From Candidatus Geocrenenecus huangii (GTDB lineage Archaea > Thermoproteota > Nitrososphaeria_A > Caldarchaeales > Wolframiiraptoraceae), in contig JALNKM010000001.1 of the NCBI GenBank assembly GCA_023268155.1, positions 1 through 64,000 of the forward strand: a stretch of DNA of 64,000 nucleotides, written 5' to 3'. Each line of letters starts with the position of its first letter. The stretch's first letter is position 1. This document shows, in pieces, positions 15,001 to 34,678 of the stretch. The notes beneath the pieces are model-generated. The model ran no database searches, was not told the origin of the DNA, and saw nothing but the letters and a program-made list of their open reading frames with translations. The translations under genes were made by a program, and so were the position numbers.

Positions 15001-15903
15001 ATGCTGTTGCTCTGTCATTGTGTACTAAATGTAAACTCTAGAGCTCCTGGAATTGCTCGTTGGAGTAACATTATTAAACCTGTCTGGGATATTATTAGAG
15101 CCCGGAATCTACAGTTCATTCAACTTCCATGTCTCGAAGCAGCTTATCTTGGTTTAAGAAGATGGTGGTTCGTTAAAGAACAATACCGTAATGCTCTCTT
15201 CAAAGATTTATGCCAGACTATTGGAGTCGGTATCTGCGAGATCTTAAAGAAGAATAATGTGAAAAAAGTTAAGTTAATTGGATTGGGAATAAGCCCAACA
15301 TGCGGATATAGAGAAACTCAAAGCGACCCATCTTGGGGTGGAAAACCGAGGGAAGTCAACTTGAAAAACAATATAACCGAGGGTCCAGGAATCTTGATAG
15401 AGATATTGAGTAAAATTCTTAAAGATTATGGATTCATATACGAGGTCTACGATCTACCACCTTGTATGATATATCCCGACGAGAGAGCAGGGGTAAAAAA
15501 GTATCCGAGAAATTTTGAAGAATCCATTGAAGAAGTCTCTGAGTTCCTAGGATTTGATTACAGGTCACTTGAACTATCCGAATACGATAAATTCATTAAT
15601 TATGATATTAGGTCTGGTAGAATCTTCATTTGCCCGCATGAGGCACTTGTAGAACAACACAAGGTTGTGGACAGATATATTGAAGATGGATATGGGTTGA
15701 TATCGATTCCAAGGTCGAATACTTTGACTTTTGAGGAAAAAGAGGTTGCGAGGATATTCGCATTACAAGTTGAGAATCATCTAGATGTAGGTCATCAAGT
15801 CATTCTCTACAGATACGAGAAATATTCTGCTCTATTCGATACGCTAGTGGAGTTCCTGAAAGACCGAAACTTATTAGAGAAAATATCCATAATATCATTT
15901 TAG
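15001..15903 (+). CDS. TudS-related putative [4Fe-4S] desulfidase
   Basis: A 300-residue protein resembling the CD3072-type relatives of TudS, the thiouracil desulfidase. It begins LLCHCVLNVNSRA (two cysteines near residues 5 and 7), continues with QLPCLEAAYLGLRRWWFVKE at about 41-60 and SPTCGYRETQSDPSW at about 98-112. Conserved cysteines in these three places bind the iron-sulfur cluster in the family, with a fourth iron left free to take sulfur. TudS removes sulfur from thiolated nucleobases, so its place beside a nucleoside-type importer is suggestive. The ATG is close to the predicted transcription start after AGTTAAAATAG, so the message may be leaderless. The substrate is unproven. Confidence 0.65.
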   Translation: MLLLCHCVLNVNSRAPGIARWSNIIKPVWDIIRARNLQFIQLPCLEAAYLGLRRWWFVKEQYRNALFKDLCQTIGVGICEILKKNNVKKVKLIGLGISPTCGYRETQSDPSWGGKPREVNLKNNITEGPGILIEILSKILKDYGFIYEVYDLPPCMIYPDERAGVKKYPRNFEESIEEVSEFLGFDYRSLELSEYDKFINYDIRSGRIFICPHEALVEQHKVVDRYIEDGYGLISIPRSNTLTFEEKEVARIFALQVENHLDVGHQVILYRYEKYSALFDTLVEFLKDRNLLEKISIISF

Positions 15904-16017: not shown

Positions 16018-16839
16018 TTATTTTTCGTTAGCGAATGCTACTATTCGGGCGAAGGCTGATTCGCCATCCTGGAACTTGAATGGAAACGCTCCTATTATAC
16101 ATCTTCTGTTAACTACTTTGCTTATTTCTCCTCCCAAGTTCTCAGCATGTAATATCATTTGCGGGAATAGCTTAAGATGCATAAGCTGATAGTTTTGTGG
16201 CCATGGCATCAACTCATCTATTTTCTTACCCCACTTCTTTTCTGCCTCAGCTACTAAGTCGGGCCTCGCCCTTCGAATCACTGTATTGAGTGGATGATCG
16301 GCTGACATAGCGTCTACACCGATCCATTTTATCTTTTTGTCAATACACCATTTAGCAAAGCTTTCATTGGGACCAGGATGTTTCACCATGTATCTAACTT
16401 CATCAGGTTCGGTTCCGCACCAAGCATATTTATGATATCCCGTATGGATTATGAGTATATCTCCTCTCTTAATCTCTACACCTCCGTCTTTTGCAGCTTT
16501 CTCTATGGTTTCTGAAGTATAGATATCGTAGTCTCCAACATATGGAGAGATATCTACCACTACTCCTTCACCGACTAGATAGTCTTCTAATGGGAGACTT
16601 GCTACGTCTTTTCCACCTGTCACGAAATGCATCTGACTATCGAAATGTGTTCCGAAATGTAGCGATGTCTCTATGTACTGAGCGTTTACTCCATGTTCTC
16701 CGAGAGTCTTGATCCAGTAGACTTTCATAGGGGGATACCACATGAAAGGCGGTTGCTTCCAGCTAGTCGGCTGAGATAGGTCATAAATCCTGACTTTACT
16801 CCAATCTACTATCTTACTCCAGTCTAAGGTCATGATCAC
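16018..16839 (-). CDS. Cyclase-family metal-dependent hydrolase (kynurenine formamidase-like)
   Basis: A 273-residue member of the PF04199 cyclase family, which includes kynurenine formamidase and isatin hydrolase, enzymes that open amide bonds. The metal motif is HFGTHFDSQMHF with His61, His65, Asp67 and His71. The usual HxGTHxDxPxH proline is glutamine here. RGDILIIHTGYHK and WIGVDAMSADHP also fit. It is divergent from the molybdenum hydroxylase genes with a shared 155-base promoter region. A role in opening a hydroxylated heterocycle is plausible inference; the substrate cannot be read. Confidence 0.75.
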   Translation of the reverse strand: MIMTLDWSKIVDWSKVRIYDLSQPTSWKQPPFMWYPPMKVYWIKTLGEHGVNAQYIETSLHFGTHFDSQMHFVTGGKDVASLPLEDYLVGEGVVVDISPYVGDYDIYTSETIEKAAKDGGVEIKRGDILIIHTGYHKYAWCGTEPDEVRYMVKHPGPNESFAKWCIDKKIKWIGVDAMSADHPLNTVIRRARPDLVAEAEKKWGKKIDELMPWPQNYQLMHLKLFPQMILHAENLGGEISKVVNRRCIIGAFPFKFQDGESAFARIVAFANEK

Positions 16840-16993: not shown

Positions 16994-17434
16994 ATGAAGC
17001 TCGAAGGTAGAATACTCCTAAGATCTCATATAGAAGACGTCTGGAATTTTATATCAGAACCTACAAAAGTTATAGAGTGCGTACCAGGTGTTCAAGATTA
17101 TTCAGTAGCCGAGGGAAAAAGGATAATAGCAAAAGTTAAAGTAAGCATAGGCTTCATTAAGGGAATCTTCCATGCATATAGCAACGTCATCGAAGAAGAC
17201 CATGAAAACTATAAGGCGAAATTGAGGTTGAACGGATCCGGTGCAGGAAGTGGTTTTGATGCATTGGTGGAGATAAAACTAGGTGAGTTAGGTTCCGAAA
17301 CGGAGTTAGCATGGATGGCCGATGTAAGTATTTCAGGCCCTCTCGGAAGTCTCGCAAGACCAATGTTAGAAGGATATGTTAGAAAGATAGTCGACCAGCT
17401 CTTTGACTGTATTAAGCATAAGCTTGCAAATTAA
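16994..17434 (+). CDS. CoxG-like SRPBCC protein
   Basis: A 146-residue protein of the CoxG family (carbon monoxide dehydrogenase subunit G-like, SRPBCC fold). MKLEGRILLRSHIEDVWNFI and CVPGVQDYSV at the start, GIFHAYSNVIEEDHENYKAKL in the middle and SISGPLGSLARPMLEGYV near the end follow the family pattern. Such proteins accompany molybdenum hydroxylases and are linked to their maturation or membrane attachment. Here it precedes the large, medium and small subunit genes, 60 bases before the first of them, which has a promoter of its own. Confidence 0.85.
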   Translation: MKLEGRILLRSHIEDVWNFISEPTKVIECVPGVQDYSVAEGKRIIAKVKVSIGFIKGIFHAYSNVIEEDHENYKAKLRLNGSGAGSGFDALVEIKLGELGSETELAWMADVSISGPLGSLARPMLEGYVRKIVDQLFDCIKHKLAN

Positions 17435-17494: not shown

Positions 17495-19891
17495 CTGACG
17501 TTCAAATATATTGGAAAACCCATCCCACCACATGATGGTTTCTATAAAGTCACTGGAACTGCACAGTATACATTTGATATTGAGCTCCCCGGAATGTTAT
17601 ACGCTAAGCTAGTCACGAGCACTGTACCCCATGCTAAGATTAAGAGGATAGATTTCAGTAAGGCCTTACAAATTCCTGGAGTGGTTAAGGTGGTGACGGG
17701 TAAAGATTTTCCATACAGGGTCGGTATGTATGCAGGAGATAGAGATCTCCTAGCTATAGATAAGGTAAGATGGGTCGGTCATCCGGTTGCAGCCGTTATA
17801 GCAGAAAGCTTAGAATCAGCGGAGAAGGCCGTTGATCTCGTTGATATTGAATATGAAGAGTTGCCTGCAGTTTTCGACCCATTGGAGGCTCTTAAACATG
17901 ATGCGCCTTTAATCCATGAGAAGATGGAAGAATACCGGCATTCACCCGCTTTTAAGCCCATACCTGGAACAAATATCGCAAATAAATTCACTCTTGTTAA
18001 AGGTGATGTAGAGAGAGGGTTCCGAGAAGCAGATGTAATTATTGAAGAGCAATTTTACATACCTCACGTAAGTCACTGCTATATGGAGGTCCAGAACGTC
18101 GTAGCACACTATCATCTAGATGGGACTGTCGAGATCTGGACAAGCTGGCAGAATGTTGCACCTATTAGGCAGATTATGGCATTATCACTTGGAATTCCTC
18201 ATAACAAGATCATTGTAAGAATCCCATATGTTGGAGGAGGATTCGGAGGTAAGGCTGGACTTGGATGGGAAGCTCTAGTGGCCGTACTTTCTAAAGAAGC
18301 TGGGTTCCGCCCTGTAAAACTTGTCTTATCAAGGAGAGAACAGTTCACCGTAGCTGCGGTCAGAGAAGGATTCTATGGATTTGCAAAAGCAGGATTCAAA
18401 AAGGATGGCAAATTTATTGCGTATGATGTTAAATTCATTCTGGATGCTGGAGCTTATGCAGACTATACTGTCAATGTGGGTAGAGCCGTCGGCTACTCTG
18501 CAGATGGTAGTTATGATATACCCAACATTAGAGTAGAATCTCTCACAGTATATACGAATAAGATTCCTACAACTGCTTTGAGAGGTTTCGGTTATCCTGA
18601 AAGTCATTGGGTTCTTGAACAGATAATGGATAGAGCTGCCGAGAAGATTGGGTTAGACCCTGCAGAGATCAGGAGGATCAACTTGGTCAAGCCAGGTATC
18701 TCTGAAACATGTACTGGTGAAAGGCTTAGAGAGGATGCTGGAAACCCTGAGAAAGTACTCCAGACCCTGCTAGAGGAGATTGAATGGAATGTTCCACCTG
18801 AAAAACCAGGAGAGCCTTGGAAGATAAGATCTAAAGGTTTAGCATTATTCGTTAAAGGTCCAGCGCAGCCTCCGAACGCTGCGGCATCAGCTATCTTGAA
18901 GTTTAATGAAGATGCAAGTGTGGATCTCTTGATCGCTACAGGAAACTTCGGGCAAGGAACTATAACCGGTTTAATACAGATTGTAGCGGAAGAATTCGGG
19001 CTACCGCTGGAAAAGATTAGAGTAGACTATATTAGAGATACTCATAAATCGGCTTACACTTGGCAAACGGTGGGAAGTAGGGGTTTATTCACTGACGGGA
19101 TAGCTATATTGAGAGCGATAGAAGATGCTAAGAAGCAGATATTTAGAGTTGCCTCAGAAGTACTAAGATGCCCTGAGGATCATTTAGAACTCGTTAATGG
19201 GGAAGTGAGGGTTAAGGGTAAACCCTGGGAGAAGATACCTCTTCAAGACATAGTTATGGGATATACGTACCCAAACGGCAACTCGATCGGAGGACCAGTA
19301 ATCGGTAGGGGGGTATTCATGTCTACTCATACAACGTATCTGGACCCTGAAACTGGTCAAGGAAACCCGACGATCTTCCATACATTTGGAGGTGCAGCAG
19401 TTGATGTAGAGATAGACTTGCTTACGGGAGAGATTAAGGTCTTGAAGATTGTTCAAGTACTAGATTTGGGGAGAGTGATAAACCCATTATTGGTTAAGCA
19501 ACAAGTAAATGGCGGTTCCTTAATGGGCTTGAGTATAGGGTCATACGAACAGATAAAATTCGATGAAAGAGGATGGGTTGTAAACCCGAATTTTACGAAC
19601 TACTATCTAATCAGAATTAAAGATATTCCTAAGGAGGTTGTTTGGAAAGCAGTCGAGACAGCTCAGTCTGATGGACCATACGGTGCGAGAGGTGTAGGTG
19701 AACTAACAATGATAGGTATAGCTCCAGCAATAGCTAACGCAATCTACAGAGCCACCAAGGTGAAGATAAACCAGCTCCCGATGAACCCAGAAAACCTGTG
19801 GAAGGCGTTCAAAGAACAGAGACCCGACCTATTCGATGAAGCTTTGAAGATGTTTATAGAATCTAAGAAATTAGTAGAGGTGAGAGCATGA
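17495..19891 (+). CDS. Molybdenum hydroxylase large subunit, copy 1 (xanthine dehydrogenase type)
   Basis: The molybdopterin subunit of a three-part hydroxylase. Motifs are VPYVGGGFGGKAG (cofactor binding), the active-site loop ALRGFG and, near the end, GARGVGELTMIG with the catalytic glutamate. True CO dehydrogenases have an AYXCSFR loop with a cysteine; this one does not, so the substrate is a heterocycle or aldehyde. The nearest ATG (17594) would remove 33 residues that align with copy 2 (TFKYIGKPIPPHDGFYKVTG against MKYVGKPIQRIDAYEKVTG). The only start that keeps them is CTG 17495, behind a strong ribosome binding site, giving 798 residues. It overlaps the FAD subunit gene by four bases. 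Confidence 0.9.
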   Translation: MTFKYIGKPIPPHDGFYKVTGTAQYTFDIELPGMLYAKLVTSTVPHAKIKRIDFSKALQIPGVVKVVTGKDFPYRVGMYAGDRDLLAIDKVRWVGHPVAAVIAESLESAEKAVDLVDIEYEELPAVFDPLEALKHDAPLIHEKMEEYRHSPAFKPIPGTNIANKFTLVKGDVERGFREADVIIEEQFYIPHVSHCYMEVQNVVAHYHLDGTVEIWTSWQNVAPIRQIMALSLGIPHNKIIVRIPYVGGGFGGKAGLGWEALVAVLSKEAGFRPVKLVLSRREQFTVAAVREGFYGFAKAGFKKDGKFIAYDVKFILDAGAYADYTVNVGRAVGYSADGSYDIPNIRVESLTVYTNKIPTTALRGFGYPESHWVLEQIMDRAAEKIGLDPAEIRRINLVKPGISETCTGERLREDAGNPEKVLQTLLEEIEWNVPPEKPGEPWKIRSKGLALFVKGPAQPPNAAASAILKFNEDASVDLLIATGNFGQGTITGLIQIVAEEFGLPLEKIRVDYIRDTHKSAYTWQTVGSRGLFTDGIAILRAIEDAKKQIFRVASEVLRCPEDHLELVNGEVRVKGKPWEKIPLQDIVMGYTYPNGNSIGGPVIGRGVFMSTHTTYLDPETGQGNPTIFHTFGGAAVDVEIDLLTGEIKVLKIVQVLDLGRVINPLLVKQQVNGGSLMGLSIGSYEQIKFDERGWVVNPNFTNYYLIRIKDIPKEVVWKAVETAQSDGPYGARGVGELTMIGIAPAIANAIYRATKVKINQLPMNPENLWKAFKEQRPDLFDEALKMFIESKKLVEVRA

Positions 19892-20766
19892 GCTTTGGAT
19901 CTCCCTATTTCACTTTACCGGACTTCACTTATCATAAACCAAGGACTCTTAGAGATGCTTTAGAACTCTTGGAAAAGTATGGCGATGATGCAAAGATACT
20001 CGCAGGTGGAGTAGGGCTAATCGCCTTCATGAAGGAAAGATTGGTCTCTCCAAGCCACGTAATTGATGTAAAAGAGATACCTGAACTTAAGAGACTCGAA
20101 TATAGGAAAGGTGAAGGACTAATCATAGGGGCCACGATAACTTTTTCGGAGCTAGAATCACACCAAGTGGTAAGAGAAAAGTATAGAGCATTATATCAAG
20201 CAGTGAAATTGGCTTCAGATAGCATAATAAGGAATAGAGCGACACTGGTAGGTAATGTTTGTGAGGCCATACCATGGGTTGATGGCCCACCCCCGCTGAT
20301 AGCCTACGGTGCAGAGGTTGAGATAAGGAGTTTGGATAGAGTTCGAAGAGTTCCAGTAGCCGACTTCATTAAAGGACCTGTAGAGATAGACCTAGAGCCT
20401 AGGGAGATCGTTACATCTATACATGTACCTGAAGTTCCAGATGAGGCGAAAAGCGGCTTCGTAAAATTCAACATAGGCTCTGAGTTCGCCCTAGTGAATC
20501 TCGCAGCTTACCTCTCATTGAACGGGAAGAAGAAAGATGTAAGACTTGTCTATGGAGCTATTTCACCGAAACCTGTTAGAGCATTAGAAGCTGAAAAGAT
20601 TCTTTTGGCCGAGGGCGATATGAGAACTCTCATAACGTCAGCTGCCTTAAAAGCATCTGAAGAATTGGAGGTGATCTCGGATGTTCTTGCCTCGGAAGAC
20701 TTTAGAAGACACCTTATCAAAGTCCTCACCGTGAAGCTTTTGACAGAGCTTATAGGAGGCGGTTAA
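19888..20766 (+). CDS. Molybdenum hydroxylase FAD subunit, copy 1
   Basis: A 292-residue FAD-binding subunit of the CoxM/XdhB type, which passes electrons from the iron-sulfur subunit to an acceptor. The first FAD motif is AKILAGGVGLIAFMKERL; most relatives, including copy 2, have AGGTDLL. The second reads TLVGNVCEAIPWVDGPPP where relatives have a GNICNASPAADSAP pattern. These changes in the flavin site may alter the acceptor or flavin binding. The C-terminal CO_deh_flav_C domain from about residue 185 is normal. Confidence 0.88.
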   Translation: MSFGSPYFTLPDFTYHKPRTLRDALELLEKYGDDAKILAGGVGLIAFMKERLVSPSHVIDVKEIPELKRLEYRKGEGLIIGATITFSELESHQVVREKYRALYQAVKLASDSIIRNRATLVGNVCEAIPWVDGPPPLIAYGAEVEIRSLDRVRRVPVADFIKGPVEIDLEPREIVTSIHVPEVPDEAKSGFVKFNIGSEFALVNLAAYLSLNGKKKDVRLVYGAISPKPVRALEAEKILLAEGDMRTLITSAALKASEELEVISDVLASEDFRRHLIKVLTVKLLTELIGGG

Positions 20767-20768
20767 AC

Positions 20769-21248
20769 ATGGTCCATAAAATAACTCTAACGGTAAATGG
20801 GTATAAGAGAACTGTTGAAGTAAAAGATAACGAGTTATTGCTTGATGTGTTAAGGGATAAACTGAAGATTAAGGGTTTGAAGGCAGCTTGCTGGCGAGGA
20901 GAATGCGGATTATGCACCGTCCTATTAAATGGAAAATTGGTGAAGTCTTGTCTTGTTCTTGCTGTTGAGGTTGATGGTTCTGAGATTGTTACTGTTGAGG
21001 GTTTGTCAAGAGACGGTGAACTCACAGAGCTACAGAAAGCATTCATAGAGCATGGAGCACTACAATGCGGATTCTGCACACCAGCATTCGTACTTGCATC
21101 ACATCAGCTATTGCTAGAAAATCCCAATCCTACAGACGAAGAAATAAAAGAGAAATTGAGTGGAATACTTTGTAGGTGCGGTACATACTACGAGATCATT
21201 GAGGCCATCAAGAGTGCATCGAACTTTTATCGAAAGAAGCAGAGATAG
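20769..21248 (+). CDS. Molybdenum hydroxylase [2Fe-2S] subunit, copy 1
   Basis: A 159-residue two-cluster ferredoxin subunit. The plant-type cluster motif is CWRGECGLCTVLLNG followed by a fourth cysteine in KSCLV. The second, helical cluster has CGFCTPAF and CRCGTYYEI. The latter replaces the usual CRCTGY found in copy 2. About 150 bases in the middle (20940-21089) are identical, base for base, to the small subunit gene of the second set on the other strand. The gene ends directly against the stop of the next, convergent, gene. Confidence 0.92.
   Translation: MVHKITLTVNGYKRTVEVKDNELLLDVLRDKLKIKGLKAACWRGECGLCTVLLNGKLVKSCLVLAVEVDGSEIVTVEGLSRDGELTELQKAFIEHGALQCGFCTPAFVLASHQLLLENPNPTDEEIKEKLSGILCRCGTYYEIIEAIKSASNFYRKKQR
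20940..21089 (+). repeat. 150-base identical tract, copy A (inverted partner at 33490-33639)
   Basis: From GTGAAGTCTTG to CCAGCATTC the DNA is identical to the complement of 33490-33639. Outside these limits the two small subunit genes differ at once (GKLVKS against GEPVKS, AFVLASHQ against AFLIVGHW). The large and medium subunit genes share no such tract. It is best explained by recent gene conversion. Confidence 0.9.
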
Positions 21249-21422
21249 CTAGAGTAGCTTATCTAATTTTTCTTTTAATCCTTTTTCTAAGCTGGGAGGA
21301 GGCTGCCAGTTGATCTGGATTGCTTCTACTCCCTGATCTTTAAGTGAACGGTAGAATATTTCTAACCCAATATTTGCAATCTTTAGCTCTTCTCTAAAAA
21401 GCTTCTTTATTTTTTCGCTCAT
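21249..21422 (-). CDS. Stand-alone FdrA-domain small protein
   Basis: A 57-residue frame, MSEKIKKLFREELKIANIGL then EIFYRSLKDQGVEAIQINWQ, PPPSLEKGLKEKLDKLL. The segment NIGLEIFYRSLKDQGVEAIQINWQPPP resembles the short conserved region (NVGLE..., QGVEVVxVDWxPP) known from small 'fdrA domain' proteins and from the N-terminus of DUF1116-type partners. It lies 12 bases downstream of fdrA on the same strand. Its stop abuts the convergent small molybdoenzyme subunit gene. It may be a small extra subunit of the carbamoyltransferase-like complex. The family link is from memory of the motif and should be treated as likely, not proven. Confidence 0.7.
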   Translation of the reverse strand: MSEKIKKLFREELKIANIGLEIFYRSLKDQGVEAIQINWQPPPSLEKGLKEKLDKLL

Positions 21423-21434
21423 CTAATCACTCTC

Positions 21435-23072
21435 CTATACATTTAAGAATTCATTGTACATCTTCTTTAATTTCTCATCTGATATTTTACAACGTTTTAC
21501 CACTAAGGCTGAAGCAAAGGCCATTAATGCGTTCGTTGGGAAGACGGTAACACCTAGGCTTCTCAACTTCTCCTCTTGTATCGAGGAGTTCTGTGGGTCT
21601 GCGTCTGTACCACATACATGCGCCATCATTATTATCTCCCTTGAATTACTCTCAGCTAATCTCTTTGCTTCTATTATTGCATCCTGCATAGCTCCAACCG
21701 GGTCGTTGTGAGCTCCGTAACCTAGAACAAAATCCATGGTTATCACTGCCACTTCAGGATCCTTAGCCTCTTCAACTAATCTCAATTTTCGAATAGTTGG
21801 GTCTATCATTGGATGAGCTCTTCCAGCTGTAAACTCTTCTTCACCGAGGTCTACCACAGTGTTCATATAGCTCTTATAGGAATCTTCCAACTTATATTTC
21901 AAGTCGAGCGGAGAGTTACTGTATACGTCTTTGCCTAGTAACTCACGGTATATCAAGAGAGACTCGTACATCAATGTCCCGCCAGTATAGAGAGCTCTTA
22001 GGTATCTTTGATTAGGCTTTAAATTGCCAGAAAGCTTCTTGCAGAGTTTCTTCAGCTCTGAGAGTTTGAGAGAGATATCCGACTTAGCTATCTTATACTT
22101 TTCCGGGTCGATTAATTTTACCATGCCGAGAGCGGCTGCATGAAGACTTCTGTAAGAATGCATCCGCTTAGCTAACTTCTTCGGTGGAATATATCTCTTA
22201 GTGCCGAGAAAACATAAGACGAATGGTTTTCTAGTTTCTTCTTCAATGAATTTCACGACCTTCTTTAGTACACTATCATCGGGGGGCTTAGAGACAATCA
22301 TTATGGACTTCGTCTCTTCGTCTGCCTCGAGAGATCTGATGCAATCTAGGGTCATTATACCTCCTACGCTCTCTTTTACATCGTTGCCTCCTACGCCGAG
22401 ACCTTGTGATACTCCTAGACCAGCCTTATCTATCAGCACGCTAACTTCCTGTAAACCTGTACCAGCAGCTGCGACTATCCCAACAGCACCTCTTCTAACT
22501 TTATTTGCGAATGCTATGGCTTTTCCATTAATAATCGATGTTCCTGCTCCAGGTCCAAGTACTAGCAGCCCTCGTTCACTTGCATATCTCTTTATTTCTA
22601 CTTCGTCTTCTACCGGTACATGGTCGCTGAATAGATGAATATGGATTCCTTTCTCTAGCAATTTTAAGGCTACTTCTTTAACGTATCGTCCCGGTATAGA
22701 GACGACCGCTAGGTTGATGTCAGGCATAGCTTCCAAAGCAGCTTCGACTGAGAAATGCATCTTATCAACGGCTGGTTGGAGTATTGTCGGGGGCTTCATC
22801 AACATTTCTTCTATTATTGAGACTATTCTTGGAAGTAGGCTTTCATCTTTCGCTCTAATAGCTAAGATTAGATCATTCGCTGTAGCTGCCTTTCCTTCAT
22901 CAGTTAGAAGATTTAATTTCTCTAGGATTTCCTTATTCGTGGTTGTGCCCATCACTAATGCTGCATCAACTACTCCATCTAGCTTCTTGGCTTCTTCAGA
23001 TAATTGCATTAGTTGTAATGAGTCTCTGAAGAGATTCGTCTTTACTATGTTTTTGACGGTCTCCATCCTCAT
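21435..23072 (-). CDS. fdrA: FdrA-like protein (oxamate carbamoyltransferase subunit AllF family)
   Basis: A 545-residue protein of the FdrA family, related to the CoA-binding and ligase domains of succinyl-CoA synthetase. Matching segments are GPGAGTSIINGKAIAFANKV, RGAVGIVAAAGTGLQEVSVL and DKAGLGVSQGLGVGGNDVKE, close to the GTAIxxG and GASGTGLQE motifs of E. coli FdrA. Length equals that of the bacterial protein. In E. coli FdrA (AllF) works with AllG (DUF1116) and AllH (DUF2877) as oxamate carbamoyltransferase in allantoin breakdown. All three families are encoded here in one minus-strand operon. Oxamate as the true substrate in this archaeon is inference. Confidence 0.85.
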   Translation of the reverse strand: MRMETVKNIVKTNLFRDSLQLMQLSEEAKKLDGVVDAALVMGTTTNKEILEKLNLLTDEGKAATANDLILAIRAKDESLLPRIVSIIEEMLMKPPTILQPAVDKMHFSVEAALEAMPDINLAVVSIPGRYVKEVALKLLEKGIHIHLFSDHVPVEDEVEIKRYASERGLLVLGPGAGTSIINGKAIAFANKVRRGAVGIVAAAGTGLQEVSVLIDKAGLGVSQGLGVGGNDVKESVGGIMTLDCIRSLEADEETKSIMIVSKPPDDSVLKKVVKFIEEETRKPFVLCFLGTKRYIPPKKLAKRMHSYRSLHAAALGMVKLIDPEKYKIAKSDISLKLSELKKLCKKLSGNLKPNQRYLRALYTGGTLMYESLLIYRELLGKDVYSNSPLDLKYKLEDSYKSYMNTVVDLGEEEFTAGRAHPMIDPTIRKLRLVEEAKDPEVAVITMDFVLGYGAHNDPVGAMQDAIIEAKRLAESNSREIIMMAHVCGTDADPQNSSIQEEKLRSLGVTVFPTNALMAFASALVVKRCKISDEKLKKMYNEFLNV

Positions 23073-23203
23073 TCGTTTCGAATAGCTACATCGTATTAGA
23101 TAAACATTTCTAGTTCATAATTCACATCTACCGTATAGTGTTATTGATAAACCTAAATGATGAAGGGGAGCACGAGGTCTACTTTCTCGGAGTTAGATAA
23201 TTT

Positions 23204-23497
23204 TTATCCTCCTCCAATAATCTCGACTAAATCTATTACATCGATAGATACGTTGTCATCTTCAGTAAGTGGAGTCTCAATCCCCTTTAATAACTTAATA
23301 CTATGCCCATTCACTAGTATCATCAAGTTATCTCTTAATCTTTCTTCCTGGTAAACAGCTTTCCTAAATTCTTCACCAAAAGTCCTCGAGATGCTCTCTA
23401 TGAGTTCTCCAACATTTCTAGGAACTTGATTTAAAATAATCTCATCTTTACCAGCAATCTCTTTCAATCTAGAATATAACCTAACTCTTATCCCCAT
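23204..23497 (-). CDS. MoaD/ThiS-like sulfur carrier protein
   Basis: A ubiquitin-fold sulfur carrier of 97 residues from the chosen start (MGIRVRLYSRLKEIAGKDEI), ending in IIGGG. A C-terminal Gly-Gly is the activation site of MoaD and ThiS. A longer frame up to 23569 is open but the MoaD pattern begins at 23497. It sits between the DUF2877 and fdrA genes, inside the carbamoyltransferase-like operon and beside molybdenum hydroxylases. It may serve molybdopterin synthesis or a pathway-specific sulfur or adenylation step. The start lies six bases after the DUF2877 stop. Confidence 0.8.
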   Translation of the reverse strand: MGIRVRLYSRLKEIAGKDEIILNQVPRNVGELIESISRTFGEEFRKAVYQEERLRDNLMILVNGHSIKLLKGIETPLTEDDNVSIDVIDLVEIIGGG

Positions 23498-23502
23498 CCC
23501 AA

Positions 23503-24459
23503 TTATGATCTTTGACAACCGGGATAAATATTTTCTACATGTTCGCCTAGGAAAGATCCTAGGGTACAATTTATTAATCTCTCAGTCAGATTTCTGCTCT
23601 TCACTCTATCTATAACTGATGCGAATCCTGTCAAAACTCCTAAAGTAATATCTAAACCGGAAGTATGCCCCCTCCTCGCAAGGTGGAGGATAGAGTCCAT
23701 GAAGCTTGTTTCATTCTTCAAAGATATTGAGCTCAGCAATTGATATACATCTTCATCGTAAAGGCCATTCTGAGCATATTTCAAGAACATTGCGCTAACC
23801 CAGTTAGTATTACTAAATAGAATTTCATCTTCTAAGATTACTCTAGGTATCTGGAATCTATCATCTAGTAGATTTAAGAAGCTGATGAATCCTAGTAGGT
23901 AATCGTCGCCGGAAGGAGTAAAACCTTGACCTAACCCGAGAAGCATTTTATAGTTCTCGGTTTTCTTAATAGCTTCTAGATCTCCTTTCGAGAATGGATA
24001 GACTACTTTATTTAAGAATTCCTTGAATCTACTCAATCCAAGTATTGGGATATTTTCCGTAGAAATATAATATAAGAGTAGGATTGTCTTCAATCCTTTC
24101 AAGTACATTCTCTCGCACAATTCGTCTAATTCACGTATTCTATCTATCTTTTCAGGAAAATAGCCTTCTGCATTTTCTAATCCTATTTCAAGTTCTCCGA
24201 CACGTATATACTGCCTCCCTATCTCTACGTTATCTCCTATTCTAATGTAAGAGTAGAATGGGATGTTTAAAGAGTCTTGAGGAATGGTTATGGTATTTGG
24301 GGAGCGATTATTCTTCCGATTTACGATAACCATATCTCTACCTACTTGAAGGTACAACGTATTAGCGAACACATGTCTGACCCTAGAGTATCTTTCCCCC
24401 CTCTCTAAGACCTCCTCACATTTTCTTCCAATAGTAGAAGCTTCAACTCTATATCTCAT
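23503..24459 (-). CDS. DUF2877 family protein (oxamate carbamoyltransferase subunit AllH family)
   Basis: A protein of 318 residues from the ATG at 24459 (MRYRVEASTIGRKCEEVLER); an upstream ATG at 24501 would overlap the preceding gene by 53 bases and seems less likely. The hallmark is GLGQGFTPSGDDYLLGF at about residues 182-198, followed by a helical C-terminal half with HTSGLDITLGVLTG. This matches DUF2877, the AllH/YlbF family, for which a carbamoyltransferase role is known from E. coli. It overlaps the DUF1116 gene by 11 bases, as expected for subunits of one complex. Confidence 0.85.
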   Translation of the reverse strand: MRYRVEASTIGRKCEEVLERGERYSRVRHVFANTLYLQVGRDMVIVNRKNNRSPNTITIPQDSLNIPFYSYIRIGDNVEIGRQYIRVGELEIGLENAEGYFPEKIDRIRELDELCERMYLKGLKTILLLYYISTENIPILGLSRFKEFLNKVVYPFSKGDLEAIKKTENYKMLLGLGQGFTPSGDDYLLGFISFLNLLDDRFQIPRVILEDEILFSNTNWVSAMFLKYAQNGLYDEDVYQLLSSISLKNETSFMDSILHLARRGHTSGLDITLGVLTGFASVIDRVKSRNLTERLINCTLGSFLGEHVENIYPGCQRS

Positions 24460-25717
24460 ATTCTTGGATGAATGCTTCGAAAGCTTTCTTGAATACCTCA
24501 AATGGGAAAGACACTATGCCAGCGCCTATCTGGCCTATTCCTGCTTCTTTATGGGCGATACCTGTATTGATCGTAGGAACTATGCCGGTCTTTAATACCT
24601 TCCTGATATCTACGCCTGTTGGAGTTCCTTGGAAGTTCAAGTAAGGTATCTGGAAATACCTGTGCTTAGCATATGTTATCTCATACATCTTGTTAGTTAT
24701 CTCGATTGCTGTCTGAACTGTTCCCCCAACCCATGAAACTATAGCTGGAGCCGCGGCCATGGCGAAGCCCCCGAATCCCGCGGTCTCGGTGATCGAGCTA
24801 TCCCCTAAATCTGGATTCGCATCTGATTCCGAGAATCCGGGGAACCATACACCTTTAGGTATAGGAGCAGCCGCCGTGAACCATCTGTTTCCCAATCCGC
24901 TAACCCATATTCCGGTCTCCGTACCATTTCTAGACATAACCGTTACGATCGTGCTATACTTGATTTTATGTGCTGCCAATGTCATAGCTTTTGCTGCAGC
25001 CATCCCGAGATTTAGAGTCGTGAAGTTGTTTCCAGCTAGAAAACTATACACTTCTCTTATTGTTTGTTTATCGAATCCAGAATCTATCATGTACGGTGTG
25101 ACCTCTTTTAGGAGGAGGCTCGTGGCTGCATTGTATCTATTGTGGCAATCGTCACCCATCTGTAATGCCTGAGCTATAATGCTTTTCAGAGATATGCCTC
25201 CTCTATCTTTTACGATCTCTCTAATAGTAGCTTGGAGGATTGGCGCAACTGTAGACTCAATCCATCTAAGTCTATCTATCACTTCTTTACTATATGCTCC
25301 ATATCTTAAAACTTTCCCAATACCCTCATTAAAATTGGAATACGTTTTATTACCGTACTTTTTATCGTACACCTCATACACCGGCATCCTGGGAGATATT
25401 ATCCCAGCCATTGGTCCGACAGCATTATGAATATGGGTGGGTTCTAAGACGACTTGACCTGAAGTAACTAGTTTCTCAGCTTCCTCAGGTGTATCCGCCC
25501 ACTCCTCATAAAGTATCGCACCTAATATCGCGCCTCTCATCGGGCCGCTTGCCTTCTCCCATGTTATAGGTGGACCTGCGTGAAGTAATAGGTAATCCTT
25601 CATTTCAGGTAATTTTTCTCTAGCTATACCGACATCAACCCATACCGGTTCGGAATCCATCATTCTTTCAACAGCTTCCTTATTAGCTTTCTCGATCTCA
25701 TCTTTAACCGAAGACAT
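24449..25717 (-). CDS. DUF1116 family protein (oxamate carbamoyltransferase subunit AllG family)
   Basis: A 422-residue DUF1116 protein, the same length as E. coli YlbE/AllG. Segments such as LLLHAGPPITWEKASGPMRG, GAILYEEWADTPEEAEKL, MGDDCHNRYNAATSLLLKE and MSRNGTETGIWVSGLG follow the family closely. It is the first gene of a five-gene minus-strand operon: DUF1116, DUF2877, MoaD-like, FdrA, small FdrA-domain protein. A TATA-like TTTTTAAAC about 30 bases before the ATG suggests a nearly leaderless message. The bacterial complex splits oxalurate with phosphate to oxamate and carbamoyl phosphate. A carbamate kinase, the usual partner, is not in the window. Confidence 0.88.
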   Translation of the reverse strand: MSSVKDEIEKANKEAVERMMDSEPVWVDVGIAREKLPEMKDYLLLHAGPPITWEKASGPMRGAILGAILYEEWADTPEEAEKLVTSGQVVLEPTHIHNAVGPMAGIISPRMPVYEVYDKKYGNKTYSNFNEGIGKVLRYGAYSKEVIDRLRWIESTVAPILQATIREIVKDRGGISLKSIIAQALQMGDDCHNRYNAATSLLLKEVTPYMIDSGFDKQTIREVYSFLAGNNFTTLNLGMAAAKAMTLAAHKIKYSTIVTVMSRNGTETGIWVSGLGNRWFTAAAPIPKGVWFPGFSESDANPDLGDSSITETAGFGGFAMAAAPAIVSWVGGTVQTAIEITNKMYEITYAKHRYFQIPYLNFQGTPTGVDIRKVLKTGIVPTINTGIAHKEAGIGQIGAGIVSFPFEVFKKAFEAFIQEYEI

Positions 25718-25948
25718 ATCCGGTCATCTTTTAGGGATCTTTAGTTGTTTAAAAACCTTAGCTATATAGCTTGAAAGTAATTGTTCTGGTAGGCAACATA
25801 TGTAATATTCTTTTCGAGCGTTCCACAAGATTATTGAAGAAACCGTATTATCTGTCAAGTATTTTCCTTTCAAATGTATCGAAAATGTTTAAAGGTTTTC
25901 TCTTTGAACATTTTAGTGAGATTAGTCATGGTTTGGAGAGCTGTTATT
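25718..25948. promoter_or_regulatory. Divergent promoter region, carbamoyltransferase-like operon and prpB-like gene
   Basis: For the minus strand, the complement of 25747-25756 (TTTTTAAAC) is a TATA box 30 bases before the DUF1116 start. For the plus strand, TTTAAAGG at 25888-25895 predicts transcription start near 25915, and GGAG at 25935-25938 is a ribosome binding site before ATG 25949. The layout suggests linked control of the two operons. Confidence 0.5.
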
Positions 25949-26857
25949 ATGAAGAAGAAAGTTGATACAGCTAAATTTCTGCGTGAAGAATTGGAGAAAA
26001 ATAAGATCATCGTGGTGCCTGGAGTTTTCAATCCATTATCTGCAATGTTGGTAGAGAGTATGGGTTTTAAAGCAGTATACGTCTCGGGCGCGGCGGTAAC
26101 AGCTTCCCTCGGTTTACCAGATATTGGGTTGATAACTATGGATGAGATGGTTAGAGCGGTTAAGTATATCGCCGATGCAGTGGATATTCCGGTTATAGTT
26201 GATGCAGATACTGGTTATGGAGAAGCGATGAATGTGGTTAGAGCGGTTAGAGAATTTGAGAAAGCTGGGGCAGCAGCTATCCAAATAGAGGATCAGGTGC
26301 TTCCGAAGAAGTGTGGACACCTAGCTGGCAAGAAGCTCATCGACCCGTTAGAGATGGCTAAGAAGATTAAAGCAGCTACAGAGGCTAGGACAAATCCAGA
26401 TCTGGTTATAATAGCTAGAACAGATGCTAGAGGCGTTAGCGGTTTTGAAGACGCTGTAAAGAGAGCGAAGATCTACCTAGAAGTCGGGGCAGACGTGATC
26501 TTCCCGGAAGCCTTAGAGTCTGAAGAAGAGTTTAAAGAATTCGCTGAAAGAGTAGATGCTTTCTTACTGGCAAACATGACTGAGTTCGGGAAGTCTCCAA
26601 TCATATCTTTTAAGAGATTAGAAGAGATGGGATATAATATGGCGATATATCCTGTTACGTTGTTGAGGTTGGCCATGGCCTGTATGAGAGAAGGTTTAAT
26701 AAAGTTGATGGAAGATGGATCCCAAGAGAAGATGATCTCGAAAATGTTTACACGTAAAGAATTATACCACTTAATACATTACAACGAGTATGAAGATTTC
26801 GACAAGAAGATTTCTGATGAAGTCGAGGAAGGTGTGAGAAAGGTATGGATAGGATAA
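25949..26857 (+). CDS. Isocitrate lyase/PEP mutase family, 2-methylisocitrate lyase-like
   Basis: A 302-residue TIM-barrel lyase. The catalytic loop is PKKCGHLAGKKL with Cys122, matching KxCGH of 2-methylisocitrate and 2,3-dimethylmalate lyases. The metal site VDADTGYG lies at about residues 84-91. These enzymes cleave a C-C bond to give pyruvate plus succinate or propionate. An open frame extends 25 codons upstream of ATG 25949, but the family pattern and the GGAG element favour 25949. It overlaps the PrpD-like gene by 13 bases. Alternative activities in the family include oxaloacetate hydrolase and 2,3-dimethylmalate lyase of nicotinate fermentation. Confidence 0.85.
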   Translation: MKKKVDTAKFLREELEKNKIIVVPGVFNPLSAMLVESMGFKAVYVSGAAVTASLGLPDIGLITMDEMVRAVKYIADAVDIPVIVDADTGYGEAMNVVRAVREFEKAGAAAIQIEDQVLPKKCGHLAGKKLIDPLEMAKKIKAATEARTNPDLVIIARTDARGVSGFEDAVKRAKIYLEVGADVIFPEALESEEEFKEFAERVDAFLLANMTEFGKSPIISFKRLEEMGYNMAIYPVTLLRLAMACMREGLIKLMEDGSQEKMISKMFTRKELYHLIHYNEYEDFDKKISDEVEEGVRKVWIG

Positions 26858-28206
26858 CCCGCATTCTTGCAGAATATGCTTACAACGTAGATTACAAGAA
26901 GCTACCTTATGAGACCGTGCATGAAGTGAAGAGGAGGATTATCGATTCCCTCGCAGTGGCTTTTGCGGCTTATTATTCAGATCCTGTAGTTAAGAGTCGA
27001 CGTGTCGCATCTCAATATGCTGCAGAGAATGGAGGGCGGATAATTGGTACAAGGTATAAAGCTTCACCGGACTGGGCCTCATTTGTAAATGGCATAATGA
27101 TAAGATATCATGATTATAATGATACGTATCTTTCTAAGGAACCCTTGCATCCCAGTGATATGATAGCTGCGGCATTCGGTCTCGGGGACGCATTAGATTC
27201 TATAGGGGAAGACGTCATCACGAGTATTGCTGTCGGCTATGAGGCTGCTGTAACTTTCTGCGATGGCGGAAGCCTTAGGAAGAGGGGATGGGATCACGTA
27301 AACTTTCTAGGCATAGGTAGCACCATCCTATCCAGTAAACTCCTCAAACTAGATATAGAGAAGATCCAGCATGCCCTCTCCATATACGCCGTTCCCCATG
27401 CTTCTATGAGGCAGACGAGGGTTGGGGAACTAAGCATGTGGAAGGGTGCCGCAGCGGCGAATTCAACTAGAAATGCTGTATTCAGCTCTCTACTTGCAAA
27501 GGAAGGATTTACTGGACCATTCAAACCGTTTGAAGGTGAGATGGCTTTCATAAAGCAACTTTTGCATGGAGATTTCGATGTTAACGTTCTATCATCGATG
27601 GAGGAGGGGAAACCTCCTAAGAAAATCCTGGATACGTATATAAAGAAATATCCTGTAGAGTATCATGCTCAAACTGCAGTTGACGCAGTCTTAAGACTTA
27701 GAGAGAAAGTCTCGTATACCGATGTGGATAAGATACTTATCGAGACATTCCAAGCAGCATATGATATTATCGGACCAAAGGATCCTGAGAAATGGGATCC
27801 GCATACGAAGGAGACTGCAGACCATTCATTGATGTGGATTGTTTCCGCTGCTCTAGTCTGGGGGGATATCTCTATCGAGCATTATCAAAATATACGGGAC
27901 CCACGAGTTCTATCCTTAATGAAGCGAATGGAGGTTAAGGTGGACCATGAGATAAATGAGAAATATCCAAGTTCTTTTCCCAACAGGATAACTATAACAA
28001 CTAGAGATGGACGGAGGTTTACGGAGGAGGTCGAATATGCTAAGGGTCATCCCAAGAATCCTATGTCTGATAAAGAGGTAGAAGAGAAGTTTAATACTTT
28101 AACGATGAGCATTATTCCAAGCGATCAGAGAAGCAGTTTACTACAGAAGATCTGGAGAATAGAAGATTATACCATTAGGGAAATTGTTGAAGATCTGATC
28201 ATCTAG
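26845..28206 (+). CDS. MmgE/PrpD family dehydratase (2-methylcitrate dehydratase-like)
   Basis: A 453-residue MmgE/PrpD protein. The family pattern includes RRIIDSLAVAFAAYYSDPVV at about residues 31-50, GIMIRYHDYNDTYL at about 89-102, HPSDMIAAAFGLGDAL and VNFLGIGSTILSSKLLKLD. It is translationally coupled to the lyase gene, as PrpD with PrpB in methylcitrate operons. Family members dehydrate 2-methylcitrate or act on itaconate-like and iminodisuccinate substrates. No PrpC-type citrate synthase is seen in the window, so a complete methylcitrate cycle cannot be claimed. Confidence 0.85.
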   Translation: MDRITRILAEYAYNVDYKKLPYETVHEVKRRIIDSLAVAFAAYYSDPVVKSRRVASQYAAENGGRIIGTRYKASPDWASFVNGIMIRYHDYNDTYLSKEPLHPSDMIAAAFGLGDALDSIGEDVITSIAVGYEAAVTFCDGGSLRKRGWDHVNFLGIGSTILSSKLLKLDIEKIQHALSIYAVPHASMRQTRVGELSMWKGAAAANSTRNAVFSSLLAKEGFTGPFKPFEGEMAFIKQLLHGDFDVNVLSSMEEGKPPKKILDTYIKKYPVEYHAQTAVDAVLRLREKVSYTDVDKILIETFQAAYDIIGPKDPEKWDPHTKETADHSLMWIVSAALVWGDISIEHYQNIRDPRVLSLMKRMEVKVDHEINEKYPSSFPNRITITTRDGRRFTEEVEYAKGHPKNPMSDKEVEEKFNTLTMSIIPSDQRSSLLQKIWRIEDYTIREIVEDLII

Positions 28207-28390: not shown

Positions 28391-29974
28391 ATGAGTGAAA
28401 AAACCGATAGAACTACGGAAGAGTTAATAAACGAGTTAAATGAGATGAGGAAGAAATCTTTACTTGGTGGTGGAGTAGAAGCAATCGAGAAACAGCATCA
28501 AGCAGGAAAACTAACAGCAAGAGAGAGGATCGATATACTACTGGATAAAGATAGCTTCATAGAACTAGACTCTTTCATGGTACATAGGGCCGCTGAATTC
28601 GGCATGGATAAAAGGAGAGTCTTAGGCGATGGGATAGTTACGGGTCTAGGAAGGATAGATGGAAGATTAGTCGCCGTTTTCGCTCAAGATGCTACTTTCA
28701 TGGGAGGGTCAATAGGCGAGATTCACGCCAACAAGATCTCTAGGATCCTAGATCGTGCAATGGAGTTGGGGGTGCCGATAATAGGCTTAAACGATTCTGG
28801 AGGTGCCAGAATCCAGGAAGGAGTTGCGTCTCTCCACGCTATAGGAGAATATTTTGCTAGAAATGTTAGAGCGTCAGGTGTGATTCCCCAGATCACTCTG
28901 ATAATGGGGCCATGCGCTGGAGGAGCAGTGTACTCTCCAGCTCTTGGAGATTTTATCATAATGGTTGAGAAGACTAGCTACATGTTCATTACGGGGCCAC
29001 GAGTAGTGAAAGCCGTAATGGGTGAGGATGTTTCTTTCGAGGAGCTGGGAGGGGCTGATGTCCATGCAAAGATATCCGGGGTCGCCGATTTCACAGCACC
29101 GAACGATGTTGAAGCATTAAATCTGGTTAGGAGGCTAGTGTCCTATCTTCCATCAAACTGTCTTGAAGAACCGCCATTCATTGATACTGGAGACCCACCA
29201 GATAGAATGAACGAAGAATTAAACTACATGATCCCTGATGATCCACGCAAGAGCTACAATATAAAAGATTTGATAAATCTCATATTCGACAAAGGTACTT
29301 TCCTAGAGGTTAAAAAAGATTTTGCACCGAATGCAGTAGTAGGATTTGCAAGGTTAGCTGGAATGGTTGTAGGAGTTGTGGCAAACCAGCCTGCATCACT
29401 GGCAGGTGTTCTAGATATAGATTCTTCTGATAAAATTGCTAGATTTGTTAGATTCTGCGATTGCTTCAACATCCCTCTAATAACGTTTGTAGACGTGCCA
29501 GGATATCTACCTGGGACGAAGCAAGAACATGGAGGAGTAATAAGGCATGGAGCGAAGGTTATCTTTGCTTATGTTGAGGCAACTGTCCCGAAGATCTCCG
29601 TCATCGCTAGAAAAGCTTATGGTGGAGCCTATATTGCGATGTGTAGTAAAAGCTTGGGGGCAGATATGGTCTTCGCCTATCCTACAGCTGAGATAGCGGT
29701 TATGGGTCCTGAAGGTGCAGTAGAAATAATTTATAGGAAAGAAATAGATTCGGCGGAACCCTCAAAGAGGGAAGAGATTATAGCTCAGTTGATCAAAGAG
29801 TACAGGGTAAAGTTTGCGAACCCCTATGTCGCAGCAGGCCTAGGATACATTAACGCGGTAATAGAACCTAAAGAGACTAGGCCAATGCTGGTTAAAGCTT
29901 TAAAGACATACATGAAAGGTAAGAGAAGCCTAGTATCAAGGCTTCCGAAAAAGCATGGTAACATTCCACTATGA
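28391..29974 (+). CDS. Acyl-CoA carboxyltransferase subunit (methylmalonyl-CoA decarboxylase alpha/PccB-like)
   Basis: A 527-residue carboxyltransferase with two crotonase-like halves. TARERIDILLDKDSF at about 37-51, the acyl-CoA loop GLNDSGGARIQEGV at about 135-148 and GPCAGGAVYSPAL at about 172-184 are typical. In the C-terminal half VDVPGYLPGTKQEHGGVIRHGAK and RKAYGGAYIAMCS form the biotin pocket. Together with the beta, biotin-carrier and gamma genes on the other strand it gives a full set for methylmalonyl-CoA decarboxylase (sodium pump). With a biotin carboxylase elsewhere it could instead act as propionyl-CoA carboxylase. A TATA box TTTAAATATA lies near 28350. Its TGA abuts the stop of the beta subunit gene. 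Confidence 0.9.
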   Translation: MSEKTDRTTEELINELNEMRKKSLLGGGVEAIEKQHQAGKLTARERIDILLDKDSFIELDSFMVHRAAEFGMDKRRVLGDGIVTGLGRIDGRLVAVFAQDATFMGGSIGEIHANKISRILDRAMELGVPIIGLNDSGGARIQEGVASLHAIGEYFARNVRASGVIPQITLIMGPCAGGAVYSPALGDFIIMVEKTSYMFITGPRVVKAVMGEDVSFEELGGADVHAKISGVADFTAPNDVEALNLVRRLVSYLPSNCLEEPPFIDTGDPPDRMNEELNYMIPDDPRKSYNIKDLINLIFDKGTFLEVKKDFAPNAVVGFARLAGMVVGVVANQPASLAGVLDIDSSDKIARFVRFCDCFNIPLITFVDVPGYLPGTKQEHGGVIRHGAKVIFAYVEATVPKISVIARKAYGGAYIAMCSKSLGADMVFAYPTAEIAVMGPEGAVEIIYRKEIDSAEPSKREEIIAQLIKEYRVKFANPYVAAGLGYINAVIEPKETRPMLVKALKTYMKGKRSLVSRLPKKHGNIPL

Positions 29975-31072
29975 TCAAAAATATGCTGGAAGTAGAGATA
30001 ATACAATAGCTCCAGCGATGACAGAGGTTATCTGACCTCCAGTGTTTGCAGCCATTGCATGCATTAGTATCCAGTTATCAGGGTCTTCTTGCCTAGCGAT
30101 GAGATGAGCTGTTCTCGCAGCCATCGGGAAAGCTGAGATACCCGTTGCGCCAATCAATGGATTTATCCTACCCTTAGTAAGGTAATATGCAAGTTTAGCT
30201 GCAAGGAGACCGCATGATAAATCTGCGATGAAGGCGAAGACACCGAGGGCGAAGACTATTAATGTTGACAAGCTTATGAATTTTTCTGCCAACATAGTTC
30301 CACCGATACTAATACCTAGTAGTAACGTCACAATATTGGATAATTCATTTTGAGCCGATTTCGACAATCTTTCAACCACGCCGCATTCTTTCAAGAAGTT
30401 TCCAAACATTAACGCCCCTATTAATGGGATACCCTTAGGAGCTATCAAGCCTATGATGACCGTTACCAGTACAGGGAAGATGACTTTAAGAGTTCTTGAA
30501 TACTGTCCCTCCTTGTACTCCATCCTTGTAAGTCTCTCTTTTTTGCTTAGAAGTAGTTTCGACGCAGGTACTTGGAGAAGAGGCACGATCGAGATGTACG
30601 TATAAGCTGAGACAGTAACAGGTCCTAGCAAGTCTGGTGCATATTTTGATGTTACATAGATTGCTGTTGGCCCATCCATTGCGCCGATTATACCTATGCT
30701 AGCAGCTTCACCAGGACTGAATCCCAAGGCTATGGCTAAGAGCATCGTTAAGGGAATTCCTAGATGTGCAGGTATTGTAATTAAGAGAACCCACGGGCGT
30801 TCAAAGAATGGGCCTAGGTCTATCATGGCTCCAATGCCTATGAAGACCAATATTGGGAATATCTCCGTGAGTATTCCGTAATCGTATAGGTATCTAAGGA
30901 ACCCTCCTAGCTCCATTAATTCCCCGAAAGGTATGTTTACTAAGATAGCTCCGAAGCCGATTGGTACCAAGAGGAGAGGCTCATACCCTTTCTTAATCGC
31001 TAGATAAATAAGAATTGAGCCTACAGCGATCATTATTGCGTTGCCTGCATATGTCGTCAATGGATCCATCAT
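29975..31072 (-). CDS. Sodium-pumping decarboxylase beta subunit (MmdB/OadB family)
   Basis: A 365-residue membrane protein with about ten spans. The functional residues of OadB/MmdB are present: the aspartate of IGAMDGPTAIYVTSK (Asp133) and the late motif NPLIGATGISAFPMAAR. These belong to the sodium and proton path through which decarboxylation of carboxybiotin exports sodium. It heads neither strand alone: the alpha subunit is convergent, the biotin and gamma subunits lie upstream on the same strand. The stops of alpha and beta genes abut in the palindrome TGATCA. Confidence 0.92.
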   Translation of the reverse strand: MMDPLTTYAGNAIMIAVGSILIYLAIKKGYEPLLLVPIGFGAILVNIPFGELMELGGFLRYLYDYGILTEIFPILVFIGIGAMIDLGPFFERPWVLLITIPAHLGIPLTMLLAIALGFSPGEAASIGIIGAMDGPTAIYVTSKYAPDLLGPVTVSAYTYISIVPLLQVPASKLLLSKKERLTRMEYKEGQYSRTLKVIFPVLVTVIIGLIAPKGIPLIGALMFGNFLKECGVVERLSKSAQNELSNIVTLLLGISIGGTMLAEKFISLSTLIVFALGVFAFIADLSCGLLAAKLAYYLTKGRINPLIGATGISAFPMAARTAHLIARQEDPDNWILMHAMAANTGGQITSVIAGAIVLSLLPAYF

Positions 31073-31081
31073 GGATTCACC

Positions 31082-31489
31082 CTACTCTATCTCGACCAAT
31101 GCTTCTCCTGCATTAACTGAAGCTCCTTCGGAAACATACACTCGCTTAACTCTACCTGATACGGGAGAATAAATTTCGTTCTCCATCTTCATGCTTTCCA
31201 AGACTAGCAGAGGATCTCCAGCTCTAACATTATCGCCTTCCCTACATTTTATTGAAACGATCGTGCCCGGGATAGGTGCTCGGACTAAACCCGGCGCTTT
31301 CGCTTTCTCGATCTTAGATTCAGGTATAACGGTCGGAACAGTTCTATGTTCCCCTATAGGAGCAGGAGCGGGTGAAGGTGTAGGAGCTGCAGGTAATTCT
31401 TCTATACCAATCTCCTCAATCTCGACTTCAAATACTTTGCCTCCTACTGTAACTCGGAATCTCCTCTTCAACCTACTCTCCCCCTTCAT
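31082..31489 (-). CDS. Biotin carboxyl carrier protein
   Basis: A 135-residue carrier. A short N-terminal part, a proline/alanine-rich linker at about residues 33-50 (PAAPTPSPAPAPIG), and a C-terminal biotinyl domain from about 67. The biotinylation site is LESMKMENE with Lys101. Linker plus domain is the usual MmdC/OadA-tail form that shuttles CO2 between the carboxyltransferase and the membrane subunit. It starts 17 bases before the end of the gamma-like gene and ends ten bases before the beta gene. Confidence 0.93.
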   Translation of the reverse strand: MKGESRLKRRFRVTVGGKVFEVEIEEIGIEELPAAPTPSPAPAPIGEHRTVPTVIPESKIEKAKAPGLVRAPIPGTIVSIKCREGDNVRAGDPLLVLESMKMENEIYSPVSGRVKRVYVSEGASVNAGEALVEIE

Positions 31490-31802: not shown

Positions 31803-31952
31803 GGAATCAAAAATAAAGACCGACTATTTTAATATTACATTTATATAGCTTATTGAGAAGCATGATGCATTCAGGTCAATGTCGATTAGCCACGTTATTG
31901 TTGAACTTCACATAGCTGAATCTTAATTAATAAATTTCAAGATTGACTAATC

Positions 31953-34674: not shown

Positions 34675-34678
34675 TTTT

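Follow-up and report, generated by a model that had tools for sequence, protein, structure and literature searches.

The AllF, AllG and AllH genes of the heat-loving archaeon Candidatus Geocrenenecus huangii probably belong to a ureide-catabolic module composed of a hydroxylase, a hydrolase, AllFGH and a carbamate kinase, with the MoaD-like carrier encoded among them serving the molybdenum cofactor and not carbamoyl transfer. This account is based on gene content, gene order, co-occurrence and phylogeny, from which we infer the substrate, the order of the steps and the function of the carrier. In the upstream step a CoxLMS molybdenum hydroxylase would oxidise an N-heterocycle, and a metal-dependent HxGTHxD cyclase-family hydrolase would open the ring to give an acylurea. 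An AllFGH-type acylurea carbamoyltransferase, made up of four chains since its AllF tail is encoded on its own, would then cleave the N-carbamoyl amide phosphorolytically, yielding the amide and carbamoyl phosphate; the compound cleaved would be oxalurate or something closely similar. Carbamate kinase would convert the carbamoyl phosphate to ATP, ammonia and CO2. The embedded MoaD would be a specialised carrier that gives thiocarboxylate sulfur to the molybdopterin of the hydroxylase and takes no part in carbamoyl transfer.

The AllFGH cluster and its separate AllF tail

All three AllFGH subunit families were present in one cluster of the window (the whole stretch of 64,000 nucleotides analysed, Table 1). 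Read along the minus strand (25717 to 21249), the order is AllG, AllH, MoaD-like carrier, FdrA/AllF and a 57-residue tail protein. All five genes lie at the positions given by the first-pass annotation, and its description also holds: the AllF/AllG/AllH set is complete, encloses a carrier and is followed by an FdrA-tail protein. The AllG and AllH genes share 11 nt; 5 nt separate AllH from the carrier, and 12 nt separate FdrA from the tail. Because 131 nt separate the carrier from FdrA, FdrA and the tail could form a separate transcript. The five-gene order was kept in three further genomes of the genus and is therefore not due to chance; relatives with identical order include Ca. Geocrenenecus and an Aigarchaeota MAG. 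The home assembly is 1.7 Mb long and 96.5% complete. Retrieved loci often ended at contig edges, so the absence of a gene near a locus tells little.

Table 1. Features of the window, with coordinates, strand and supporting matches
Feature	Position	Strand	Remarks
Nup-type ABC transporter, ATPase and two permeases	9758-13257	plus	PF00005, PF02653
Bmp/PnrA-type solute-binding protein	13450-14862	minus	PF02608
Cyclase-family metal hydrolase, HFGTHFD	16018-16839	minus	PF04199; commonest partner
CoxG-like maturation protein	16994-17434	plus	PF06240 E 1e-26
Xanthine-dehydrogenase-family molybdoenzyme CoxL/CoxM/CoxS	17594-21248	plus	ends one base before tail gene
AllF C-terminal tail, separate 57-aa protein	21249-21422	minus	NF004760 positions 502-554
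FdrA/AllF minus C-terminal tail, 545 aa	21435-23072	minus	PF02629 and PF00549; 3DMY E 9e-65
MoaD-like sulfur carrier, 97 aa, C-terminal GGG	23204-23497	minus	PF02597 E 2e-8; TIGR01687
AllH (DUF2877), about 318 aa	23503-24459	minus	PF11392 E 1e-21; ATG at 24459
AllG (DUF1116), 422 aa	24449-25717	minus	PF06545 E 3e-88; solved relative 3CLQ E 2e-118
Methylisocitrate lyase (PrpB) and MmgE/PrpD-family protein	25874-28206	plus	TIGR02317 above cut-off; PF03972, PF19305
MmdA-like carboxyltransferase (+), OAD-beta Na+ pump (-), biotin carrier (-), biotin ligase (+), BioY (-)	28391-33267		
Second molybdoenzyme, CoxS, CoxM, CoxL	33343-36997	minus	same 100/100 clade; 1343 bits

The subunits share nearly all of their near-invariant positions with the E. 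coli proteins in alignment (AllF 65 of 70, AllG 74 of 79, AllH 13 of 14). In E. coli, AllFGH has been proven to be an oxamic transcarbamylase, which forms oxamate and carbamoyl phosphate from oxalurate and phosphate (Kim and Kim, PMC11326118). FdrA scored 404 bits against model NF004760, below the cut-off of 433, and the missing positions are those of the separate tail gene. The only good match of the 57-residue protein was to the last 53 positions of the same model, and it aligned with the C-terminus of E. coli AllF along the INIGL...W.P segment. By sequence, the protein is a separately encoded C-terminal domain of AllF and not an additional activity. The tail was a gene of its own in 24 retrieved loci, three of them clostridial. 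It stood alone in most archaea, and in two archaeal loci (L045 and L046) it formed one chain with AllG, at the N-terminal end. This pattern of separate, AllF-fused and AllG-fused forms suggests that the tail may sit where the AllF and AllG subunits meet. As far as could be found, a separate AllF tail gene has not been described earlier. In a MAG from Caldarchaeales, FdrA was split by a frame change into parts of 124 and 432 aa (L060:10342-11981), either an error or a pseudogene.

An AlphaFold (AF2) model of AllH, lacking the first three residues (the reference used began at 24450), was confident (pLDDT 90, pTM 0.89). Since a fold search of the PDB gave no match at E <= 0.001, the model is silent on chemistry, and the structure was dropped as a clue to mechanism. 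The AllH fold is possibly one still unsolved, and it carries a strongly conserved GxGxGFTPSGDD loop.

Carbamate kinase was detected in the home genome on contig C1 (L074:4816-5778; 425 bits, cut-off 358). Among the Thermoproteota genomes sampled, a full-length carbamate kinase was found in 21 of 21 AllG-positive genomes versus 115 of 377 AllG-negative ones, counts that ignore relatedness. In one locus (L044) it was found within the AllFGH locus itself. The immediate neighbour of the home-genome copy is a second operon for a Bmp/Nup-type ABC transporter.

The molybdoenzyme clade and the embedded carrier

Both molybdoenzymes of the window fell into one 20-member clade (support 100/100) in a large-subunit tree of 45 sequences, and 15 of the members came from AllFGH loci. 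A profile of the clade retrieved 21 genes scoring at least 1228 bits, the next best reaching at most 712. Genes of the clade were found in 15 of the 21 AllG-positive genomes versus one of the 377 AllG-negative ones, a co-occurrence not corrected for phylogeny; the single AllG-negative genome, a MAG from the same genus, is fragmented. The enzyme has the three-subunit layout of bovine XDH and nicotinate dehydrogenase, and the window protein keeps equivalents of bovine Arg880, Arg912 and Glu1261. Unlike bovine XDH, 16 of 17 clade members possess alanine at the position of Glu802. Glu802 and Arg880 are marker positions of xanthine dehydrogenase proper; of the two, the window protein keeps the arginine and has alanine for the glutamate. 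This alanine makes it probable that the clade enzyme differs from ordinary xanthine dehydrogenase. The alignment of the first large subunit of the window with related subunits already begins at about 17498, before the first ATG, GTG or TTG of the frame (17594). The subunit probably starts near 17490, which would mean a rare start codon or an error in the sequence.

The carrier scored above the cut-off of the archaeal model TIGR01687 (moaD_arch; 62.7 bits, cut-off 49.5) and below that of the moaD equivalog TIGR01682 (13.6 bits, cut-off 66.2), and it is thus not a canonical MoaD. Its C-terminus lacks the PP.AGG tail of MoaE-linked MoaD. In a tree of 63 ThiS/MoaD-family proteins from AllG-positive genomes and loci, it belonged to a 10-member clade (support 98/96), apart from the MoaE-linked MoaDs, in which the GGG terminus was invariant (10 of 10). 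The score gap of the carrier profile is partly circular, because the profile was built from its own members, which score high by construction. A test leaving out one family at a time held for four of five groups and narrowly failed for L110, whose carrier was weakly placed in the clade. As far as could be found, a carrier clade tied to AllG and to the molybdoenzyme has not been described earlier.

The first-pass annotation had recognised that the carrier might be the only MoaD of the genome, and so merely general. This was rejected, as the home genome holds at least four other ThiS/MoaD-family genes, and one of these lies on contig C17 beside the sole MoaE. A redundant carrier for tRNA thiolation, general cofactor synthesis or SAMP-like conjugation could still have come to lie here by chance. 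The Ubls of Thermococcus kodakarensis are partly redundant (PMC11323500), and the home genome encodes three E1-like ThiF proteins, none next to the carrier gene, which would agree with such a role. However, the carrier forms a distinct clade found solely in AllG-positive genomes of several archaeal families, always together with the same molybdoenzyme clade, and the additional carriers of the genome also speak against it. We regard such a general carrier as unlikely.

All 10 genomes bearing the carrier also had the molybdoenzyme clade, and the carrier was absent from all six AllG-positive genomes without it (one-sided p = 0.0085, relatedness ignored). Five AllG-positive genomes had the molybdoenzyme clade and no carrier. 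In L044 the genes run in a single direction as AllH-MoaD-CoxL-CoxM-CoxS-FdrA-tail-AllG, and in L050 and L108 the carrier lies 1 to 3 nt from CoxS. One genome (G131) encodes the carrier 129 nt from CoxL on contig C1 (L110) and AllFGH on contig C9 (L054). Locus L054 of this genome also encodes a fusion protein (L054:16185-17267) in which a family 1 encapsulin shell protein is joined to an encapsulin ferritin-like domain.

These data also bear on a role for the carrier inside the carbamoyltransferase, either as a subunit or through a thiocarboxylate acting as acyl or sulfur donor, with a sulfur-containing intermediate. The tight spacing of AllH and MoaD in two unrelated families (5 nt in Geocrenenecus, 16 nt in L044) and the restriction of the clade to AllG-positive genomes are consistent with it. 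However, E. coli AllFGH is active with three chains only (PMC11326118), 11 of the 21 AllG-positive genomes lack the carrier, and the carrier tracks the molybdoenzyme clade and in one case adjoins CoxL at a distance from AllFGH. We thus consider a part in carbamoyl transfer very improbable. The first-pass annotation had left the choice between a sulfur-containing intermediate and a cofactor role. The evidence favours the latter, while the contrast between carrier presence with and without the molybdoenzyme clade (10 of 10 versus 0 of 6) and the carrier beside CoxL away from AllFGH speak against the former.

Some observations point away from the hydroxylase. In Geocrenenecus the carrier is co-transcribed with AllG and AllH, and CoxLMS is on the opposite strand. 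In L059 and L061 the carrier is near FdrA and the molybdoenzyme is on a different contig. The home genome already has a MoaE-linked MoaD and could strictly do without another. The missing PP.AGG tail, the five AllG-positive genomes with the molybdoenzyme clade but no carrier, and the weak placement of the L110 carrier count against this role as well. Further molybdenum-cofactor genes, XdhC and MoeA, occur in these islands, and in T. kodakarensis UblB and its terminal glycines are required specifically for the tungsten cofactor (metallopterin) of one enzyme (PMC11323500). On the strength of the clade data, the Cox neighbourhood, XdhC and MoeA, and the UblB precedent, we assign the carrier to the putative hydroxylase and not to carbamoyl transfer.

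Neighbouring genes and candidate substrates

A survey of the neighbours of these families in archaeal genomes, as the first-pass annotation had proposed, recovered, besides the molybdoenzyme clade in 15 of 21 AllG-positive genomes, an HxGTHxD cyclase-family hydrolase beside AllFGH in 21 of the 30 loci fetched. In nearly all its loci the hydrolase adjoins AllG, AllH, FdrA or molybdoenzyme genes, and it often lies less than 20 nt from AllG, AllH or FdrA. As far as could be found, this recurrent pairing has no earlier description. Nucleobase- or nucleoside-type transporters (Bmp/Nup, NCS2, NCS1) were frequent in AllFGH loci. The methylisocitrate lyase, PrpD and carboxyltransferase/biotin genes form a group divergent from AllG. 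Elsewhere, methylmalonyl-CoA mutase was found in L012 and L016, the epimerase in L018 and L019, and carboxyltransferases in L048, L050, L057 and L061; such methylmalonyl-CoA-type neighbours span Nitrososphaeria, Clostridia and other Caldarchaeales. The biotin island (28391-33267) was kept next to AllFGH in Geocrenenecus. A TudS-related putative desulfidase (CD3072 family) is encoded at 15001-15903 and has relatives near AllFGH in L021 and L057. A conserved 246-aa protein (37102-37842, family c7) was present in 10 AllFGH loci; it had no family match, and among PDB sequences it showed a weak acetyltransferase likeness (E 0.02).

Two substrates are compatible with the module proposed here. The first is oxalurate, formed from purines as in the E. 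coli All pathway, which would make AllFGH a true oxamate carbamoyltransferase. It is suggested by homology to the proven enzyme, by the NCS2, NCS1 nucleobase and Bmp/Nup transporters of the loci, and by CaiB CoA-transferases and amidases in some of them. However, AllD was not found in the home genome, and the sole allantoinase-model match there adjoins pyrB (aspartate carbamoyltransferase) and is probably a dihydroorotase; an E. coli-type allantoin route upstream was rejected on these two grounds. The alanine at the bovine Glu802 position also argues against purines. We hold this substrate as a tentative candidate.

The second comes from an oxidative pyrimidine pathway, in which the hydroxylase would turn thymine or uracil into (methyl)barbiturate, the hydrolase would open this to ureido(methyl)malonate, and AllFGH would release carbamoyl phosphate and (methyl)malonamate, the latter feeding methylmalonyl-CoA decarboxylation and the methylcitrate cycle. 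The PrpB, PrpD, MmdA, OAD-beta and biotin genes adjoining the operon would fit such an end, as would the methylmalonyl-CoA mutase, epimerase and carboxyltransferases near AllFGH in other loci. The TudS-related desulfidase of the window and the close likeness of ureidomalonate, an acylurea, to oxalurate also point this way. However, this support is contextual, the methylcitrate genes could simply belong to the normal use of propionate, and no member of the barbiturase family was identified. We hold a pyrimidine origin to be somewhat unlikely. A pathway not yet described, archaeal and partly clostridial, might combine the distinct hydroxylase clade, the metal hydrolase and a four-chain AllFGH with its own sulfur carrier, and conserve energy in carbamoyl phosphate gained from some acylurea that is not oxalurate, for example ureido(methyl)malonate arising in oxidative pyrimidine breakdown. 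We think this somewhat unlikely.

Relation to known systems

Archaeal AllFGH is not new: allFGHK is already reported from Nitrososphaerales (PMC12625717). The present system resembles allFGHK of E. coli (PMC11326118) in having the three families in an operon, nearly all near-invariant positions in common and a carbamate kinase in the genome. Unlike in E. coli, the AllF tail is separate, a carrier gene lies inside the operon, AllD and a good allantoinase candidate are lacking, and the linked genes include those of a molybdenum hydroxylase and a metal hydrolase as well as methylmalonyl-CoA genes. AllFGH with carbamate kinase is shared with the allFGHK systems of non-AOA Nitrososphaerales and comammox Nitrospira (PMC12625717). 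That study reports a bmpA-nupABC transporter with allFGHK in one archaeal MAG, and its accessible text contains no mention of a carrier, the molybdoenzyme clade, a cyclase-family hydrolase or a split AllF. As with UblA, UblB and UblC of T. kodakarensis (PMC11323500), several MoaD-like carriers occur in one archaeon, and there one is specific to the cofactor of a single metallopterin enzyme. That enzyme is a tungsten glyceraldehyde-3-phosphate oxidoreductase, whereas here a xanthine-dehydrogenase-family enzyme is concerned and the carrier lies in a catabolic operon.

The OXTCase genes were identified as late as 2024. The association of AllFGH with a single molybdoenzyme clade, a single hydrolase family and carbamate kinase in several archaeal families presents a candidate route to ATP from ring nitrogen, and the module points to a so far unexplored archaeal breakdown of nitrogen rings. 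The tail, which is standalone here but part of AllF in E. coli and part of AllG in two archaea, hints at the site that joins the complex. The carrier clade adds to the case that archaea may use one sulfur carrier per metallopterin enzyme.
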